Part shown: positions 5,336 to 21,914 of the stretch, piece by piece
How positions within the stretch are numbered: position 1 is the stretch's first letter
How the letters are laid out: each line of letters starts with the position of its first letter
NCBI RefSeq assembly: GCF_000092425.1
Contig: NC_014221.1
Location: 1,245,001 to 1,309,000, forward strand
DNA: 64,000 bases
Source of the DNA: Truepera radiovictrix DSM 17093
Lineage (GTDB): Bacteria > Deinococcota > Deinococci > Deinococcales > Trueperaceae
Direction of reading: 5' to 3'
Translations under genes and position numbers: made by a program
The notes under the pieces: generated by a model
What the model saw: only the letters and a program-made list of their open reading frames with translations
Told to the model about the DNA's origin: nothing
The model's database searches: none

Positions 5336-6355
5336 TCAGAAAAAGCTCCGCACCCCCACCGACACGTTGAGGGCGCGGACCCGTTCGCCCCAGCTGCCGC
5401 CGGCGCTGAGGGTGAGCTCTTCGTCGCCGCTTAGGGCGCTGTAGGTGAGCGCCGGTTGCAGCTCGGGGGTGTCGGCCACAAGGAGCCGCACGGTCCCGGT
5501 CAGCGCGTCCGCCTCGCGCTGCAGCAGCGTGAGCTGCCCGGCGAGCTGCGGCGCGGGCGCGGTGCTCGGGGGGGGCGCGGCGTAGGCGGCCTCGAGCGTC
5601 CAGAGCCGCGCGCCCAGGTAGCCGCTCGCCCCGAGCGCGCCGCGCGCCTCCAGGGGCTGGGTGAGCAGCCACGCCTCGCCGTAGAGCACCGTGGCCCCGA
5701 AAAGGCCGCTGCCGCCGAGCCCCACGACGAGGCTGGAGGTGCCGTGCGCGCTGGGGTAGAGGGCGGTGGCCTCGAGCTCGAACCCCCCGAAGCTCCCCCG
5801 GACGCCGAGCAGGGGGGTGGGGGCGCTAAAAGCCGCCCCGTGGGTCGCGGGGTAGAGGAGCGCCCCGCGGACGCGCCACGAAGCGCCGAACGCTTGCGGG
5901 TACCACGCCGCCCGCACCCCCAAGACCCCCCGGGGGAGGCCGCGCGCGTTGCGCGCCTCCACGCTAAAGGGCGCGCTGAGGCGCGCGACCTCCAGAGGGA
6001 GCCGCTCGAGCCCCGCGCTCAGGTCCACCTCCCCCCGCCGCACGAGGGCGTAGGCCTCGGTGAGGCCAGCGTCGAAGGCCACGCCGCCGAAAGTTCCAGC
6101 ATCGAACGCCGCAGCGCCAAACGCCGCGGCGCGCCCGACGCGCACGCTGGGGTCCAAGGCGAGGGTGAGGGTGGCCTCCAAGGGCGCGCCGAGGGTGTGC
6201 GCCGCCTCCAGGTGGCCCGCGAGCGTCCAGGAGGGCGCCGCCCGCACCCCCTCCGCGAGGTCGGCGCCGAGCGCGACCTCGAGCGCGCCTTGGGTCCTGA
6301 GCTGCGCGTGCGCCATTCCCATGAAAAGGAGCGCAAGAGACACCGCCCACCTCAT
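5336..6355 (-). CDS. Predicted outer-membrane beta-barrel-like protein
   Basis: Unrecognised secreted protein of 339 aa. Residues 1-17 form a signal peptide ending MAHA. The mature chain alternates small, aromatic and charged residues in short strands, with many Ala/Gly/Leu turns, and ends in VGVRSFF. A terminal aromatic residue on a last strand is the usual assembly signal of outer-membrane barrels. The start overlaps the stop of the ABC ATPase gene by 4 bases, making it the last gene of the envelope-export operon that begins at 12719. This suggests it is the outer-membrane partner of the transporter, which is inference. No named family is recognised. Confidence 0.6.
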   Translation of the reverse strand: MRWAVSLALLFMGMAHAQLRTQGALEVALGADLAEGVRAAPSWTLAGHLEAAHTLGAPLEATLTLALDPSVRVGRAAAFGAAAFDAGTFGGVAFDAGLTEAYALVRRGEVDLSAGLERLPLEVARLSAPFSVEARNARGLPRGVLGVRAAWYPQAFGASWRVRGALLYPATHGAAFSAPTPLLGVRGSFGGFELEATALYPSAHGTSSLVVGLGGSGLFGATVLYGEAWLLTQPLEARGALGASGYLGARLWTLEAAYAAPPPSTAPAPQLAGQLTLLQREADALTGTVRLLVADTPELQPALTYSALSGDEELTLSAGGSWGERVRALNVSVGVRSFF

Positions 6356-7044
6356 GCCGCCTGCGCCTCCTCGCCGACCACGCGTCCGTCCTGCAACCAG
6401 ACGGTCCGCCGCACGTGTGACAGGAGGCGGGGGTCGTGGGTGCTAAAGAGGAACGTCACCCCCTCCTCGCGGTTGAGCCGCTGCATGTGCGCGATGAGCG
6501 CCTCGCCGGTCGCGCTGTCTAGGTTGGCGGTCGGTTCGTCCGCCAGGATGAGCTTGGGCCGCGCCGCGAGCGCCCGCGCCACCGCCACGCGCTGCTGCTG
6601 CCCGCCGGAGAGTTGGTTGGGGCGGCGCTCGCCAAGGTCGGCGATGCCCAGGACCTTAAGCGCCGCGAGCGCGCGCGCCTCGCGCTCGCGTTTGGGGACG
6701 CCCTGCAGCTCGAGCACGAAGGCGGCGTTTTCAAGGGCGCTCAAGACGGGGATGAGGTTGTACGCCTGAAAGACGAAGCCGAAGTGCGTGAGCCTTAAAG
6801 CGGCGAGCGCCGAGGCGCTCAGGCCGTCGATACGCTCGTCTCCTAGCCACACCTCCCCCGCGCTCGGGTGATCGAGGCCGCCCAAGAGGTGCAGCAGCGT
6901 GCTCTTGCCCGAACCCGAGGGGCCGGCGATCGCGGTGAACTCCTGCGGGTAGATCTCGAGGTCGACCCCGCGCAGGGCGTGCGTCTCGACCTCGCCGGTG
7001 CGGTAGCTTTTGCGGAGGTTGCGGGTGCGTAAAAGGGGGGGCAT
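6352..7044 (-). CDS. ABC transporter ATP-binding protein, LolD/MacB type
   Basis: Cytoplasmic ATPase of 231 aa that should power the two FtsX-type permeases of this operon. Walker A is GPSGSGKST (about residue 40), the Q-loop segment is FVFQAYNLIP, the signature is LSGGQQQRVAVARAL, and Walker B is LILADEPTANLDS, all typical of the LolD/MacB/FtsE branch. The ATG at 7044 is chosen because AAAGGA lies 5-6 bases before it; the reading frame continues upstream only through a heptamer repeat array. It is separated from its permease by that array and a four-helix-bundle gene on the other strand, which may lower its expression. Confidence 0.92.
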   Translation of the reverse strand: MPPLLRTRNLRKSYRTGEVETHALRGVDLEIYPQEFTAIAGPSGSGKSTLLHLLGGLDHPSAGEVWLGDERIDGLSASALAALRLTHFGFVFQAYNLIPVLSALENAAFVLELQGVPKREREARALAALKVLGIADLGERRPNQLSGGQQQRVAVARALAARPKLILADEPTANLDSATGEALIAHMQRLNREEGVTFLFSTHDPRLLSHVRRTVWLQDGRVVGEEAQAA

Positions 7045-7065
7045 GGGGTCCTTTCGGAGGGTGGG

Positions 7066-7148
7066 GAGTCCGTAGTCAGAAGGCAGTAGCCAGTAGTCAG
7101 TAGGCAAGTCAGTAGCCAGTAGTCAGGGGGTGGTAGTCAGAAGTTCAC
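7066..7148. repeat. Heptanucleotide tandem array A (GTAGYCA units)
   Basis: About ten degenerate 7-base units such as GTAGTCA, GTAGCCA and GAAGGCA. The array lies just upstream of the four-helix-bundle gene. The opposite orientation of the same units occurs downstream of that gene at 7531-7593. Confidence 0.8.
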
Positions 7149-7182
7149 TGCTCGGCAGGGGGCAGTTGGGTAGGGTTGGGGG

Positions 7183-7548
7183 GTGAGGCAGCCTGCGAAG
7201 GTGTTTACGGACCTGCTCGTTTGGCAGAAAGCGCACCGGTCTGTCCTAGAGGTGTACGCCTATACGCGCGGCTTTCCCAGGCACGAGCGTAGCGGGCTTG
7301 CGGGGCAGTTTCGCCGCGCAGCCGTCTCGGTGCCCGCAAATATCGCGGAGGGGTTTCGGAGGCGCGGCAAGGCGGACAAAGCTCGCTTTTACAACATCGC
7401 GCAAGGCTCGCTCGAGGAGTGCCGCTACTACCTCATTCTGGCGCACGACCTCGGCTACGGTGAAACGCACGAACTCATGTCCCTCCTTAGCGAGGTCAGC
7501 CGTTTACTGGACAGCTTCACGAGAACCCTGCTGACCCCTGACTCCTGA
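7183..7548 (+). CDS. Four-helix bundle protein (23S rRNA intervening-sequence type)
   Basis: Protein of 121 aa that matches the four-helix bundle family first found in 23S rRNA intervening sequences and related to the Avd protein of diversity-generating retroelements. The conserved pattern is visible: DLLVWQKAHRSVLEVYAYTRGFP, QFRRAAVSVPANIAEGF, then ARFYNIAQGSLEECRYYLILAHDLGY. Its biochemical role in this setting is unknown; family members bind nucleic acid or form pentamers. The start is GTG at 7183. The gene lies on the plus strand inside a minus-strand operon, between two inverted heptamer arrays, and array B encodes its last residues (LLTPDS). It looks like an inserted cassette. Confidence 0.85.
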   Translation: MRQPAKVFTDLLVWQKAHRSVLEVYAYTRGFPRHERSGLAGQFRRAAVSVPANIAEGFRRRGKADKARFYNIAQGSLEECRYYLILAHDLGYGETHELMSLLSEVSRLLDSFTRTLLTPDS

Positions 7549-7593
7549 TTTCTGACTCTGACTACTGACTCCTGTCTACTGACGACTGACTTC
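7531..7593. repeat. Heptanucleotide tandem array B (TGACYMC units)
   Basis: About nine degenerate units such as TGACTAC, TGACTCC and TGACCCC, the inverse complement of array A. It overlaps the 3' end of the four-helix-bundle gene and supplies its stop codon. It ends 7 bases before the stop of the next minus-strand gene. Confidence 0.8.
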
Positions 7594-7599
7594 ATATCT

Positions 7600-8829
7600 T
7601 CACGCCGAAAACCTCATCGCCTCGACCGGCTCGAGCCTGAGCGCGGTGAAAGCGGGTAAGAGCGCGGCGCAGACGCCCGTGAGGACGGTAAAGAGCGTGG
7701 CGACGGCGACCTGGGTGGGCGTGAGGGTGGCGTAGAGCACTTCGGGCAAACCGGCGTCCCCCAAGAGCTCGGTGTAGGCCGGCGGGAACGAAAAGCCCTG
7801 CGCCATGACCCCGACCACCCCGAGCCCGAGCGCAGCCCCGGCGAGCGCGCCGAAGCCGCACAGGATGAGGCTCTCGGCGAGCACCATGCCGAGCACCCGG
7901 CCTCGGGGGGCGCCGAGCGCTTTGATGACGCCGAACTCGCGCACCCGCTCGATGACGCTCAGGTAGACGGTGTTGGTGACGAGCAGCCCCGCGAGGACGA
8001 AAAAGACGAGCGTCACGACGGAGGTCGTCGCGGGGATGATGTCTAGGTACGCCGCGACGCCCGGGTTGAGCTCGCGCCAGGTGGGGAGGCTCACCCCGTC
8101 GCCGAGGCGCTCCCCGAGCGCCGCTTGCAGGGCGGGGAGGGTGGGGTCGTCGGAGCGCCCGAAGTCGGCGAGGTGCAGCTCCATGCGGGTCACGGCGTCC
8201 GGTGCGGCCAGCTCCTGGGCCGCCGCGAGCGACACCTCCGCGACGGGCGCGCCCCCCGGGATCTCCAGAAGCCCCACGACGGTGTAGGCCGCCGCGCCGT
8301 ACCCCTCGGTGCCGGGGGCGTAGACGTACACCGTGCCGCCTAGCCCCACCGCGAGCGCGCGCGCGAGGCTCTGGCTGAGCGCGACGCCCGTCAGGTCATC
8401 CTCCGCGGGGAGGCGCCCCGCGGCGAGCGCGCGTGCGGTGTAGCGCGCCTGGAGACCGGGCGCGCGCGACACCCCCTCGAGCACCACCCCGCGGCTCCGG
8501 CCGTCGCCCTCCACCAGCCCGGGGACGCTCAGCGCGGCGACCAGTTGGGCGTTCTCGGGCGCCTCCGCCTCGAGCCGCGCCCGCAGCGCGCCTGCGTCCC
8601 GCAGCAGCAGGTCGCTAAACGCGCGCAGCTCGCGGTAGTTTGCGGCGCGCACCTGAAGGTGCCCGGTGCTCGCGGTCAGGTTGTCGTACATGCCGTTTTG
8701 GAGCGCGCCCGCGAGGCCGAAATAGATGAGCGTCAAAAAGACCACCACCGCGACCGCGCCCGCGCTCACCGCGCTGCGCCCGCGTTTACGCAGCAGGTTG
8801 CGCCACGCGAGCTCTAAGGTCCCGCGCAC
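7600..8829 (-). CDS. ABC transporter permease, MacB/FtsX family
   Basis: Inner-membrane permease of 409 aa with the MacB/FtsX layout: one N-terminal membrane helix (about 18-40, SAVSAGAVAVVVFLTLIYFG), a large periplasmic domain (about 45-270), and three C-terminal helices (from about 275). The cytoplasmic coupling segment VIERVREFGVIKALGA is the family mark, and FTALRLEPVEAMRFSA is the usual tail. It should pair with the second permease at 9771-11033 and with the ATPase at 6352. The start is GTG at 8829, one base after the stop of the LolA-like gene, so the two are tightly coupled. The substrate is not known; lipoprotein or lipid release is suggested by the LolA-like neighbour. Confidence 0.88.
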   Translation of the reverse strand: MRGTLELAWRNLLRKRGRSAVSAGAVAVVVFLTLIYFGLAGALQNGMYDNLTASTGHLQVRAANYRELRAFSDLLLRDAGALRARLEAEAPENAQLVAALSVPGLVEGDGRSRGVVLEGVSRAPGLQARYTARALAAGRLPAEDDLTGVALSQSLARALAVGLGGTVYVYAPGTEGYGAAAYTVVGLLEIPGGAPVAEVSLAAAQELAAPDAVTRMELHLADFGRSDDPTLPALQAALGERLGDGVSLPTWRELNPGVAAYLDIIPATTSVVTLVFFVLAGLLVTNTVYLSVIERVREFGVIKALGAPRGRVLGMVLAESLILCGFGALAGAALGLGVVGVMAQGFSFPPAYTELLGDAGLPEVLYATLTPTQVAVATLFTVLTGVCAALLPAFTALRLEPVEAMRFSA

Positions 8830-8830
8830 C

Positions 8831-9580
8831 TCAGCACCCCCGCTCGAGCGCGGCTTCCGTAAAGCAGCCCGAGACCTCGGCGCCGAACTCGGGGTCGCGG
8901 ATCACGAGCACCGTGCGCTCCCCCTCGCGCAGCAGGTTCGTGACCTCGAGCCGCGTCGGAAACGCCACCTCCGCGACCTGCACGACCTCGGAGAAGGTGA
9001 CGCGCCGCACCGCCGCGCCGCGCTGGTCGTAAAAGGTGTATTCGAGCGGCGTGAGGTCGCCCTCCTCGCTCACGCCGGCTACGATGACGACCCGCCCGTA
9101 GGGGGTCGGGGCGGTCGGGGTGGGGGTGAGGGTGAGCTCAATGGCGTCCGCCGTTTCACCGGTGATCTCGGCGGTGTAGTCGGTCTCGAGGTCGCGCCCC
9201 GAGAGGTCGCCGTAGGCGAGGTCAGAGCCCAAAAAGGCGTCGCTCTGGGCGCTCGGCGGCAGGCGCAGGGTGCGGCGCAGGCGTGGGTTGTAGAGAAAGA
9301 GCTCGTCGCCGCGCCGCAAAAACGCCTGCCCCGCGTCGCGGGGTGGCGCGGTGACCCGGATGAGGCTGCGCGCCTCCCCGTCGGTGACGAGTTCCAGCTC
9401 GAAGACCTCCTCTCGGCCCGGTCGGGAGATGCGCATCGTGACCCCTCCGCGCATCGTCTGCGCCCCGCGCTGCGCGTCCAAAAGGGCGCTTAGAATCGCG
9501 TCCGCGCCTTGCTGGGCGAAGCCGAGGGGGGTGAGGCTGAGGAGGGCTAGGGTGAGAAACTTAAGGGTGGGGCGTTTCAT
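8831..9580 (-). CDS. LolA-like outer-membrane lipoprotein-sorting protein
   Basis: Secreted protein of 249 aa in the LolA/LppX-like fold. Residues 1-20 form a signal peptide (FLTLALLSLTPLGFAQQ). The body has the half-barrel pattern of the family: GGVTMRISRPGREEVFELELVT, FLRRGDELFLYNPRLRRTLRLP, then the GSDLAYGDLSGRDLETDY motif that I know from COG2834 members found beside FtsX or RND permeases. Such proteins carry a lipid or lipoprotein across the periplasm. The ATG at 9580 is used because AGGTCCCC precedes it and further upstream there is only repeat array C. It sits directly before its permease gene. Confidence 0.82.
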   Translation of the reverse strand: MKRPTLKFLTLALLSLTPLGFAQQGADAILSALLDAQRGAQTMRGGVTMRISRPGREEVFELELVTDGEARSLIRVTAPPRDAGQAFLRRGDELFLYNPRLRRTLRLPPSAQSDAFLGSDLAYGDLSGRDLETDYTAEITGETADAIELTLTPTPTAPTPYGRVVIVAGVSEEGDLTPLEYTFYDQRGAAVRRVTFSEVVQVAEVAFPTRLEVTNLLREGERTVLVIRDPEFGAEVSGCFTEAALERGC

Positions 9581-9603
9581 AGGGGACCTCTTTGGGGGGC
9601 GAG

Positions 9604-9666
9604 CGATGAGCCATGAGGAGATGAGTGATGAGTCATGAGCAACGAGCCATGAGCAATGAGTCATGC
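9604..9666. repeat. Heptanucleotide tandem array C (ATGAGYM units)
   Basis: Degenerate units ATGAGCC, ATGAGTC, ATGAGCA and ACGAGCC repeated about nine times. The unit differs from arrays A, B, D and E, but the 7-base period is the same. It lies inside the ABC operon between LolA and the first permease. Confidence 0.75.
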
Positions 9667-9680
9667 GCGACGTGTGGTGT

Positions 9681-9766
9681 TGACCGACTTCTGACCCCTG
9701 GCTTCTGACTACTGACCCCTGACTACTGACCCTGGCTGCTGACTACTGACCCCTGACTGCTTCTGC
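9681..9766. repeat. Heptanucleotide tandem array D (TGACYMC units)
   Basis: About twelve degenerate units (TGACCCC, TGACTAC, TGGCTGC) in the same orientation as array B. It starts 14 bases after array C and ends 4 bases before the stop of the permease gene at 9771. Confidence 0.8.
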
Positions 9767-9770
9767 GTCC

Positions 9771-11033
9771 CTACTCCGCCCGCATCGCTTGGGCGGGCCT
9801 TAGCCGCGCGACCCGCCGCGCCGGCACGAGCAGCGCAAAGGCCGCGGCGAAGGCGACGGGGGCGGCGGCGTAGAGGGCGTAGCGCGGCGACGAGGTGGTG
9901 TAGAGTTCGTCGCCGATGCCGTAGGCGGCAAAGCCGTCGAAGATGCCGGCGAAGGCCGCGCCCAGGAGGTTCCAGGTGCCAAGCGTCCAGGTGAGCGCGT
10001 AACCGAGGGCGAGCCCCGTGAGCCAGCCGAGCGCCGTGGCGAACACCGCCTCCAGGACCACCATGCGGGCGAGCTTGGGCGGCGCGAGGCCGATGGCGGC
10101 CATCACGCCGAACTCGCGTTGGCGCTCCAAGACGCTCACGACCACCGTGCTGGTCACGGCGAGGGCGGCGAGCACGGCAAAGAGCAGACCGATAGGGATG
10201 CCCGAGAGGCGGCTCGCGTCCACCTGCGCTGCGAGCGGCCCCAAGAGGTCGCGTAGGGAGTAGGCGCGCACGCCGCCCGGCAGGGCGCCCTGCACGCGCG
10301 CCGCCACCGCCTCCTCCTGGCCGCGCGGCACGTCCAGAGCGACGCCGGTTGCGGTGTCGACGCCCGTGAGCGCGCGGGCGTCCTCTAGGTGCACGAGCAC
10401 CGCGGCGTCGTCGACGGCGGCGACGCCCGTCTCCAGCAGGCCGACGACCTCCAGCCCGGTCGCCTGCGGCCCGGCCAGCGCCGCCGCGTCGAGCGCCAGG
10501 CGCTCGCCGACGCGCACGTCGAGGCGCGCCGCCAGCTCCGTGCCGAGCACCGTCTCCCCGGGCGCCTCGAGCATCCGCCCCGCGGTGACGCTCCCCGGAA
10601 GGTCGCTCACGGCGGGCTCGAGCGCCGGGTCGACCCCGCGCACCTGAGCGCCAAGAGCGGTGTAGGGGGAGCGCAAGAGCGCGTAGAACTCGAGCCGCGG
10701 CGCCGCCGCGCGCACCCCCGGCACCCCCCGCAGGGTTTCCAGGAAAGCGAGCGTCGGCAGCGCGTTCTCGGGGTCGGGGTCGTCCCCGTACGCGGGGGTC
10801 GCGACGAGGGTCGGGGCGCTCAGCAGCCGCGCCTGACTCGCCAGCATCGACTCGGTGACGCCCTCGGTGTAGCCCCAGTAGAAGACGGTGGTGAGGGTGG
10901 CGTAGGCGACGACCACGATAAGTAGCAGCGTGCGCCGCCGCTGCCGCCAGAGGTTGCGCCACGCGAGGCGCACCAAGGGGCCCAGGCGCGCGCCCCCCCC
11001 GCGCTGGGTGGGTAGCGGGGTGCGCGTGTTCAT
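9771..11033 (-). CDS. ABC transporter permease, MacB/FtsX family (second)
   Basis: Inner-membrane permease of 420 aa with the same plan as the protein at 7600-8829: an N-terminal helix after LAWRNLWRQRRRTLLLIVVVAYATL (about 30-55), a periplasmic domain, and three C-terminal helices. The coupling segment SVLERQREFGVMAAIGLAP is clear, and the chain ends VARLRPAQAMRAE. Two unequal permeases with one ATPase would give a LolCDE-like assembly. The start overlaps the stop of the serine hydrolase gene by 4 bases. The frame that runs across it at 9709-11076 is an Arg-rich shadow and is not used. Confidence 0.88.
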   Translation of the reverse strand: MNTRTPLPTQRGGGARLGPLVRLAWRNLWRQRRRTLLLIVVVAYATLTTVFYWGYTEGVTESMLASQARLLSAPTLVATPAYGDDPDPENALPTLAFLETLRGVPGVRAAAPRLEFYALLRSPYTALGAQVRGVDPALEPAVSDLPGSVTAGRMLEAPGETVLGTELAARLDVRVGERLALDAAALAGPQATGLEVVGLLETGVAAVDDAAVLVHLEDARALTGVDTATGVALDVPRGQEEAVAARVQGALPGGVRAYSLRDLLGPLAAQVDASRLSGIPIGLLFAVLAALAVTSTVVVSVLERQREFGVMAAIGLAPPKLARMVVLEAVFATALGWLTGLALGYALTWTLGTWNLLGAAFAGIFDGFAAYGIGDELYTTSSPRYALYAAAPVAFAAAFALLVPARRVARLRPAQAMRAE

Positions 11034-20587: not shown

Positions 20588-21796
20588 ATGTTTGGATTAG
20601 CCCCTCGAGGCGCCCACGGCCTCCTCGCCCTCGTCCTCCTCCTCGGCGCCTGCGTGCAGCCGCCGGTGGATCCCAGCCCCGACCCCGAGCCGCCCGCTGC
20701 GGCGCCGACGCTGCCCGACCTGACGCCCGGCGTCTGGACCGCCCTCTCGCCGGGGGGGGAGACGACCTGCTCAGACGGTTCGCCCTACACCTTTTTCGTC
20801 CGCCCCGGGACGGTCAACAAGGTGGTGGTGGACTTCGAGGGGGGTGGCGCCTGCTGGAACGACGGCACGTGCGGTCCCAACGGGCCCTATCAACCCAACC
20901 TCGCCGCCTCGATGAGCGCGCGCTACCGCGAGGAGAACCCCACCGGGTTGTACGACAAGAGCAACCCCGAGAACCCCGTGCGCGACTGGTACCACGTGTT
21001 CGTGAGCTACTGCACCGCCGACGTGCATCTGGGTGACAGCGTCGAGACCTACACCACGCCGCAGGGCGAGCGCACGGTCTACCACAAGGGACAGGCGAAC
21101 GTCCGCGCGGTGCTCGCCTGGATGGCGGAGCACTTCAGCGCCCCCGAAGCGGTGTTCGTCACGGGGTGCAGCGCTGGCGCCTACGGCGCGGCGCTCTACA
21201 CCGCTGAGCTCGCCGCGATGTACCCCGAAGCCGACGTCAGCCAGATGGGTGACTGCGGGGCCGGCATCATTCCCGAGAGCTTCGTTCAGGAGGGCCTGAA
21301 CCGCTGGAATATCGAGGGGGCGTTGCCCGCAGGGGTCGACCTCGAGGAGGGCGTCCCCGCGACCTTTTTGGCCGACGCGTACGTCGTGATCGGCCAGCAG
21401 TTCCCCGAGGCGCGCCTGTCGCAGTACAACAGCGCCTTCGACGGGGTGCAGATCGCCTTTTACGCGCGGATGCTGGAGCGCAACCTGCAAGACCCCGAGG
21501 CGCTGCAGGAGGTGGCCGAAGCGTGGTTTACGGGGCTCGTCACCTCGTTGCAGGGCATTCAGGTGGAGCTGCCGAGCTTTTCGAGCTACACCAGCTTGCT
21601 CGACGACAACGACGACCTGCAAGACGGCACCGCGCACTGCCTGCTCTTCCGACCCGAGTTCTACACCTTGGTGACGTCGGAGGTGCGTTTCGTCGACTGG
21701 CTGGGGGACCTCATCGCGGGGGAGTCGGGGCAGACGGTCTTTACGCCGCTCCCCGAAGCGCTCGAGCCGCCGGTAGCGGTAGGGGCCAGCAGGTAG
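20588..21796 (+). CDS. Pectin-acetylesterase-family lipoprotein
   Basis: Predicted serine esterase of 402 aa in the pectin acetylesterase/NOTUM family. The signal sequence ends in the lipobox LLGAC, so it should be a lipid-anchored envelope protein. Family motifs are VVVDFEGGGACWN (about 78-90, oxyanion loop), VFVSYCTADVHLGD, and the nucleophile elbow VFVTGCSAGAYGA with Ser near 200; the acid is probably in the GDCGAGI region and a C-terminal histidine in GTAHCLLF. The true substrate is uncertain; deacetylation of a polysaccharide or removal of an acyl group is typical. ATG at 20588 is chosen because AAGGGAGA lies before it and the signal peptide starts there. Confidence 0.85.
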   Translation: MFGLAPRGAHGLLALVLLLGACVQPPVDPSPDPEPPAAAPTLPDLTPGVWTALSPGGETTCSDGSPYTFFVRPGTVNKVVVDFEGGGACWNDGTCGPNGPYQPNLAASMSARYREENPTGLYDKSNPENPVRDWYHVFVSYCTADVHLGDSVETYTTPQGERTVYHKGQANVRAVLAWMAEHFSAPEAVFVTGCSAGAYGAALYTAELAAMYPEADVSQMGDCGAGIIPESFVQEGLNRWNIEGALPAGVDLEEGVPATFLADAYVVIGQQFPEARLSQYNSAFDGVQIAFYARMLERNLQDPEALQEVAEAWFTGLVTSLQGIQVELPSFSSYTSLLDDNDDLQDGTAHCLLFRPEFYTLVTSEVRFVDWLGDLIAGESGQTVFTPLPEALEPPVAVGASR

Positions 21797-21914
21797 TAGG
21801 CCGTAGCCAGTAGTCAGTAGCCAGTAGTCAGTAGCCAGTAGTCAGGGGTCGGTAGTCCGTAGTTAGGGAACGGTAAAAGTCCTGCCGGCTTCTGACCCCT
21901 GACGTCTGGCTTCT
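21797..21914. repeat. Heptanucleotide array E with an internal inversion
   Basis: Units GTAGCCA and GTAGTCA alternate six times (21810-21845), followed by degenerate units and a short stretch in the opposite orientation (TGACCCC, TGACGTC). GTCAGGGGTC (21841-21850) and GACCCCTGAC (21894-21903) are inverse complements. It fills the gap between the esterase stop and the promoter of the HD-domain gene and resembles arrays A and B without a gene between them. Confidence 0.8.

Follow-up and report, generated by a model that had tools for sequence, protein, structure and literature searches.

A PF05635 gene between mirrored heptamer arrays in Truepera radiovictrix: a candidate copy of a small element with relatives in many phyla

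How does a gene for a helix-bundle protein of 121 residues come to lie inside a transport operon, on the opposite strand, with a tandem array of seven-nucleotide units before it and the same array, reverse-complemented, behind it? This question is raised by a locus of Truepera radiovictrix DSM 17093, found in a stretch of 64,000 nucleotides of contig NC_014221.1 (positions 1,245,001 to 1,309,000), which we refer to as the window and from which all coordinates below are counted. The product of the gene belongs to the family PF05635, the 23S rRNA-intervening-sequence proteins (IVPs, also called S23p). These proteins are common and conserved, and a structure was solved 20 years ago; to our knowledge, they are still without an assigned function. 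Our answer, to which we give a probability of about 0.55, is that the cassette is an instance of a small, widespread element that resembles both REPINs and intervening sequences, and that the IVP acts on its paired arms.

The whole cassette occupies positions 7045 to 7599 on the plus strand, between two minus-strand operon genes, one for an FtsX-type permease (7600-8829, PF02687), whose stop codon abuts the cassette, and one for an ABC ATPase (6352-7044, PF00005). Array A, with GTAGYCA (AGTCAGT) units, runs from 7067 to 7139 on the plus strand and is reported by TRF with a period of 7/14. The plus-strand IVP gene follows at 7183-7548, with a TGA stop and a GTG start at 7183 that is supported by an ortholog in a related genome (G096). 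Array B, with CTGACTA units on the same strand (7532-7593), is the reverse complement of array A, and the two consensus units agree at 7/7 positions after reverse complementation. Its first part falls within the 3' end of the reading frame and encodes the last residues, LTPDS, and the stop codon. The original prediction had described this architecture from the letters alone, namely the inverse-complementary arrays, the position between the permease and its ATPase and the coding of the protein's end by array B, and the coordinates, TRF and the unit match bear it out in each respect. When one mismatch was allowed, a two-unit array pattern occurred 11 times in the window, with 0.01 occurrences expected per shuffled window; these counts, together with those at the control sites described below, rule out a chance origin of the repeats.

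Arrays of this kind stand beside other copies of the gene, as the original prediction had proposed looking for, both in Deinococcota and in many other phyla. We took all PF05635 loci of Deinococcota, of which 49 were compared, and 80 cross-phylum loci, of which 76 were compared; at each locus, the best period-7 window was chosen on each side, and the upstream unit was compared with the downstream one after reverse complementation of the latter. A mirrored match of at least 6/7 was found in 26/49 Deinococcota loci, against 3.5% for pairs from different genomes, and there were no matches in direct orientation. The cross-phylum loci gave 35/76, against 2.5% for mismatched pairs and 1/144 for control sites located on those contigs. 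Windows of period 7 that reached 20/28 or more were present in 69/156 cross-phylum IVP flanks and in 9/288 controls. Among IVP loci on viral contigs, several of them near-duplicates, 17/22 had a mirrored match. The unit is specific to the locus (for example AGTCAGT, AACGCAA, TTAGTGG, GGTGGGA or GCTTAAA) and common to both of its arms. A strict period of 7 is ruled out by loci with units of 8, 9 or 10 nucleotides (L122, L123, L124, L129, L161, L172, L185 and L187), mostly of equal length on both sides. Read on the gene strand, upstream units consist of purines by more than half in 68/84 loci, with G exceeding C in 63 and C exceeding G in 8. Two loci (L134 and L140) are exceptions in which the unit is repeated on both sides in direct rather than inverted orientation.

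Comparison with relatives indicates how the cassette came to its place. The operon, in the order permease2, lolA, permease1, ATPase and outer-membrane-like protein, is conserved in the bacterial family of the host. In 12/12 relatives examined, its permease1-ATPase junction is free of arrays and genes and only about 6-140 bp long; set against these empty sites, the window cassette is, on the sequences compared, an insertion. In genome G096, this operon contains an ortholog of the window IVP (71.6% identity), but at the permease2-lolA junction and on the opposite strand relative to the operon; repeats of the AGTAGTCAGAATACA type precede the gene and TTGAATACT repeats follow it. The window genome has no gene at that junction, only an inverted array pair (9601-9760) made of a GAGCAAT arm (9601-9665) and a TGACTAC arm (9685-9760), and the other 11 relatives have neither gene nor arrays. 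The simplest reading would be that the cassette relocated locally, or that it arrived once and was lost once, with the arrays left behind, and either direction fits the comparison. The junction lies between the second FtsX-type permease gene (9771-11033, minus strand) and the LolA-like gene (8831-9580, minus strand, PF17131). The true start of the latter lies near the ATG at 9578-9580, which is conserved in relatives, because a longer open reading frame call reads into the heptamer array; that call begins 28 codons early (9581-9664) and translates the repeat as protein, MTHCSWLVAHDSSLISSWLIARPPKRSP. The view that the locus is a mobile or domesticated cassette thus stands as far as insertion goes, by the empty sites in the relatives. 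Autonomous movement, its other half, we can only infer, because no transposase lies between the window arrays.

The pair at 9601-9760 is one of dozens of inverted array pairs without a gene in the window genome. It and a second pair, at 21785-21913, which lies between two genes and consists of a GTAGYCA arm followed by a TGACCCC/TGRCTTC arm, had escaped the original prediction. We scanned the window genome, a single contig of 3,260,398 bp, with a three-unit TGACTNC pattern and obtained 88 matches, against 2 for the reversed pattern. They form about 30 arrays, many of which are inverted pairs with short spacers. The genome has two unit families, one for each of its IVP genes: TGACTAC (family 1) goes with the window gene and GAGCAAT (family 2) with a second gene located between trpE and trpG, and GAGCAAT also flanks the ortholog of this second gene in G100. 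For family 2, the reversed-pattern control gives no discrimination, the pattern being nearly its own reverse. Across both families, all 17/17 clear gene-less pairs that we counted have the polarity of the gene cassette, with the upstream-type arm first. IVP cassettes adjacent to trpE recur in several genomes (L002/L072 and Meiothermus/Thermus-like loci such as L083, L085 and L089) with differing protein clades and units; judged from these loci, the trpE neighborhood is a recurrent landing site for such cassettes.

Arrays of the window type also follow the matching IVP among related genomes. TGACTNC arrays rise above the background of 0-2 matches in only 2/39 genomes of the host's family, the window genome (88 matches) and G096 (12), which are the two with a window-type IVP; the chance of such a pairing is 1 in 741. 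In other phyla, arrays of a locus's own unit are nearly private to its genome: GGTGAAT has 14 matches in G121 and GGTTAGT has 13 in G115, and most of the 22 further genomes have neither, apart from 5-8 matches of GGTGAAT in G134, G111 and G130 and two of GGTTAGT in G127. Two further repeat sets were met via control patterns. G122, the Flavobacteriaceae genome of locus L157, has 38 TAAGTGG triplet matches on one strand. G111, the Sphaerospermopsis genome of locus L112, has more than 1000 TGATTGG/TGACTGG triplet matches, which may be classical cyanobacterial short tandemly repeated repetitive (STRR) sequences; the IVP locus L112 itself has GGTGACT/GGGGACT arrays.

A prediction set beforehand concerned a published heptamer. 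The accessible passages of a 2015 study of Xanthomonas campestris describe 186 GGGAATC arrays, with 70 convergent inverted pairs, near gene ends (PMC4692102). They report that the arrays are not generally linked to insertion sequences or transposable elements, and no gene family is connected with the arrays in the passages searched (PMC4692102). We expected that a genome with GGGAATC arrays would hold an IVP gene between inverted GGGAATC arrays, with the G-rich arm upstream. GGGAATC arrays were present in 1/369 Gammaproteobacteria, G501, and this genome has exactly one PF05635 gene, apparently frameshifted, between GGGAATCGGCAATGGGGAATCGGGAATC and GATTCCCTACTCCCCATTCCCGATTCCC; it follows an apparent accB, the gene for the biotin carboxyl carrier protein, and precedes accC. 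The prediction held in G501. The base rate of PF05635 in sampled Gammaproteobacteria genomes is 5/25, so the presence of the gene alone is modest evidence, and the matching arms are the test. Our search of the open-access literature found no earlier description of a link between PF05635 and heptamer arrays.

The protein offers some indication of what it might do. The window IVP scores 119.9 bits against PF05635 (cut-off 33.8) and 113.7 bits against TIGR02436 (cut-off 24), as the original call of a four-helix-bundle gene would lead one to expect. PF05635 is the only profile matched by the gene product, and no Y1 tyrosine (HUH) transposase was detected in it. Its predicted structure is a helix bundle with a pLDDT of 80.5, obtained from single-sequence input with one of five models clearly better than the others. 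The nearest solved structures are 2GSC and 2RLD, followed by the Avd structures 4DWL/8UBE at weak significance. 2GSC is the structure of the X. campestris IVP XCC0516, and X. campestris S23p forms a homopentamer (PMC4990558). A relation to the Avd protein of retroelements had been suggested from the start; the kinship is real and distant, with a Foldseek E of 0.15 against 4DWL and a score of 24.2 bits against the Avd equivalog model, below its 80-bit cut-off. No reverse transcriptase was found among the six operon-region proteins tested. Comparison of the window IVP with its ortholog in G096 gives a dN of about 0.20 and a dS of about 2.3 (dN/dS about 0.09), which places the protein under purifying selection.

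We envisage the element as a PF05635 gene preceded by a tandem array of 7-nucleotide units (8-10 nucleotides at some loci) and followed by the inverse complement of this array. The two arms would form a stem that encloses the gene, either in RNA or in single-stranded DNA. The IVP, probably a pentameric helix bundle related to Avd, itself a partner of nucleic acids, would most likely bind the repeat arms and maintain or move its own cassette and, in trans, the gene-less arm pairs, in the manner of the RAYT of the REPIN system yet not as a transposase. Three parts of this picture go beyond what the sequences show and are inferred: that the IVP binds the arms, that the element works in its stem form, and whatever path its movement takes. 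In the RNA fold of the window cassette, 46/73 bases of array A are paired to array B (z = -2.2), a pairing predicted largely because the arms are complementary, and both strands fold with their arms paired.

Several observations weigh against this proposal. Between the window arrays, there is no transposase or recombinase, the IVP gene being alone there. No target-site duplication was found at the cassette, where the relatives are too diverged at the junction to align, and no mobile intermediate was met. Across phyla, the unit follows the sequence of the IVP only loosely (Spearman 0.13; p = 0.001 under global permutation and 0.098 under within-phylum permutation), and a unit dictated by the IVP sequence is consequently supported only weakly across phyla and without significance when permutation stays within phyla; a comparison within a window-like clade, set up ad hoc and with some members chosen by hand, does not enter the evidence. 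Only in family 2 is an arm of a gene-less pair closer to its partner than to the arms of other pairs; the idea that the two arms are specific copies of each other fails for family 1. Lastly, the only recent multi-copy IVP family that we met, in Calothrix sp. PCC 7103, rides in an insertion sequence (IS) with its own transposase.

The Calothrix case (G126, L251-L255) is the argument for regarding IVP cassettes as transposon cargo, with solitary cassettes as remnants. It comprises five copies, more than 99.5% identical, of a 2.6-kb ISL3-like IS carrying the IVP gene, with 94-bp terminal inverted repeats that contain GGCAGAG heptamer arrays and with 8-bp target duplications such as GGAAATTG. Given that an IS carries the gene, we reject these copies as proof of autonomous transposition. 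As a general account, cargo is quite improbable: neither the 555-bp window cassette nor the G096 cassette has IS ends or a transposase gene, in agreement with the original remark that no known transposon fits, and arrays vary by locus whereas IS ends are fixed. Replication slippage, which would build heptamer arrays at fragile sites where IVP genes are tolerated or land, could accommodate the variation of unit and copy number, including Coxiella strains that differ by one unit (PMC4990558). It gives no reason why the same unit should flank one gene family in mirrored form in many phyla or why gene-less pairs should have a single constant polarity, and with the existing evidence weighing so strongly against it we find it hardly credible.

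An improbable account is that the IVP is a repressor or RNA regulator whose own arrays are operators and whose regulon is the gene-less pairs. The position of these pairs near gene ends would suit it, as would the role in translation proposed for TAACTGA arrays in the accessible part of one report (PMC4679880), but the hairpin polarity, the local relocation within one operon and the patchy distribution over phyla are more readily explained by an element than by a regulon. The main rival is an RNA-processing insert, in which the arms are kept complementary because their stem lets RNase III excise the insert from host transcripts, the IVP is incidental or acts on this RNA only, and spread is by recombination and horizontal transfer. 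In the 23S intervening sequence of Coxiella, tandem GACAGAT heptamers precede the S23p gene and a 28-bp terminal stem is cut by RNase III (PMC4990558); moreover, the arms pair on each strand of the window cassette, and the inserts sit within operons while leaving genes intact. What excision leaves unexplained is why gene-less pairs sharing the unit go together with the presence of the IVP and why the protein is under purifying selection; many gene-less pairs also look intergenic, where excision gives no benefit. We judge it unlikely as the whole explanation, and it may coexist with an IVP that acts on the arms.

A broader proposal, which we make tentatively and would not yet back at even odds, is a class of selfish elements in many phyla, defined by mirrored arrays of near-constant period and free sequence. 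A non-enzymatic pentameric protein would set the period, rewrite both arms in concert and mobilize, in trans, the hairpins that lack a gene. Members would include the heptamer repeats of Xanthomonas, Nostoc and cyanobacteria as well as the 23S rRNA intervening sequences, the last of these probably so. Tying PF05635 to heptamer arrays gives each a testable partner, the arrays of cyanobacteria, Xanthomonas and sulfur bacteria having so far been reported without an attached gene. The origin of 23S rRNA intervening sequences would then be one particular outcome of a more general element, and the question is raised of what counts seven nucleotides while the sequence itself is free.

Of the known systems, Avd of diversity-generating retroelements shares with the IVP a distant similarity of sequence and fold, and is likewise a pentameric helix bundle in a nucleoprotein; unlike its setting, the window locus has no reverse transcriptase or template repeat that we could see, and its protein lies under the Avd cut-off. 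The published heptamer repeats, GGGAATC in Xanthomonas and GGGGA(C/T)T in Nostoc (PMC4692102), TAACTGA (PMC4679880) and the cyanobacterial STRR, are like the window arrays in being intergenic with a period of 7, and the window arrays exceed chance in this form; the Xanthomonas repeats further share the convergent inverted pairs, about 70 in the passages available (PMC4692102). They differ in that the text searched names no associated gene (PMC4692102, PMC4679880), whereas the arrays described here are linked to PF05635.

The 23S rRNA intervening sequences of Leptospira and Coxiella (PMC4990558) have the same protein family and complementary ends, and in Coxiella tandem heptamers stand directly before the gene, as in the window cassette (PMC4990558). 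The window cassette has the complementary ends as well, but it is inserted in a protein-coding operon, with an ABC permease and ATPase as neighbors, and not in 23S rRNA; for the intervening sequences, the accessible literature does not describe the mirrored-array rule, a unit particular to each locus or gene-less relatives. In the REPIN/RAYT system, too, a gene is flanked by inverted repeats and matched to many gene-less, hairpin-forming pairs near genes, and the supposed role of RAYTs is to serve these pairs, the REPINs (PMC3116915). The RAYT protein, though, is a tyrosine transposase and its palindromes are fixed (PMC3116915), whereas the IVP lacks a catalytic domain and has as arms tandem 7-mers that vary by locus. 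The pattern of dispersal is shared: the window genome contains dispersed short inverted pairs, and repeats that match them stand beside the gene.
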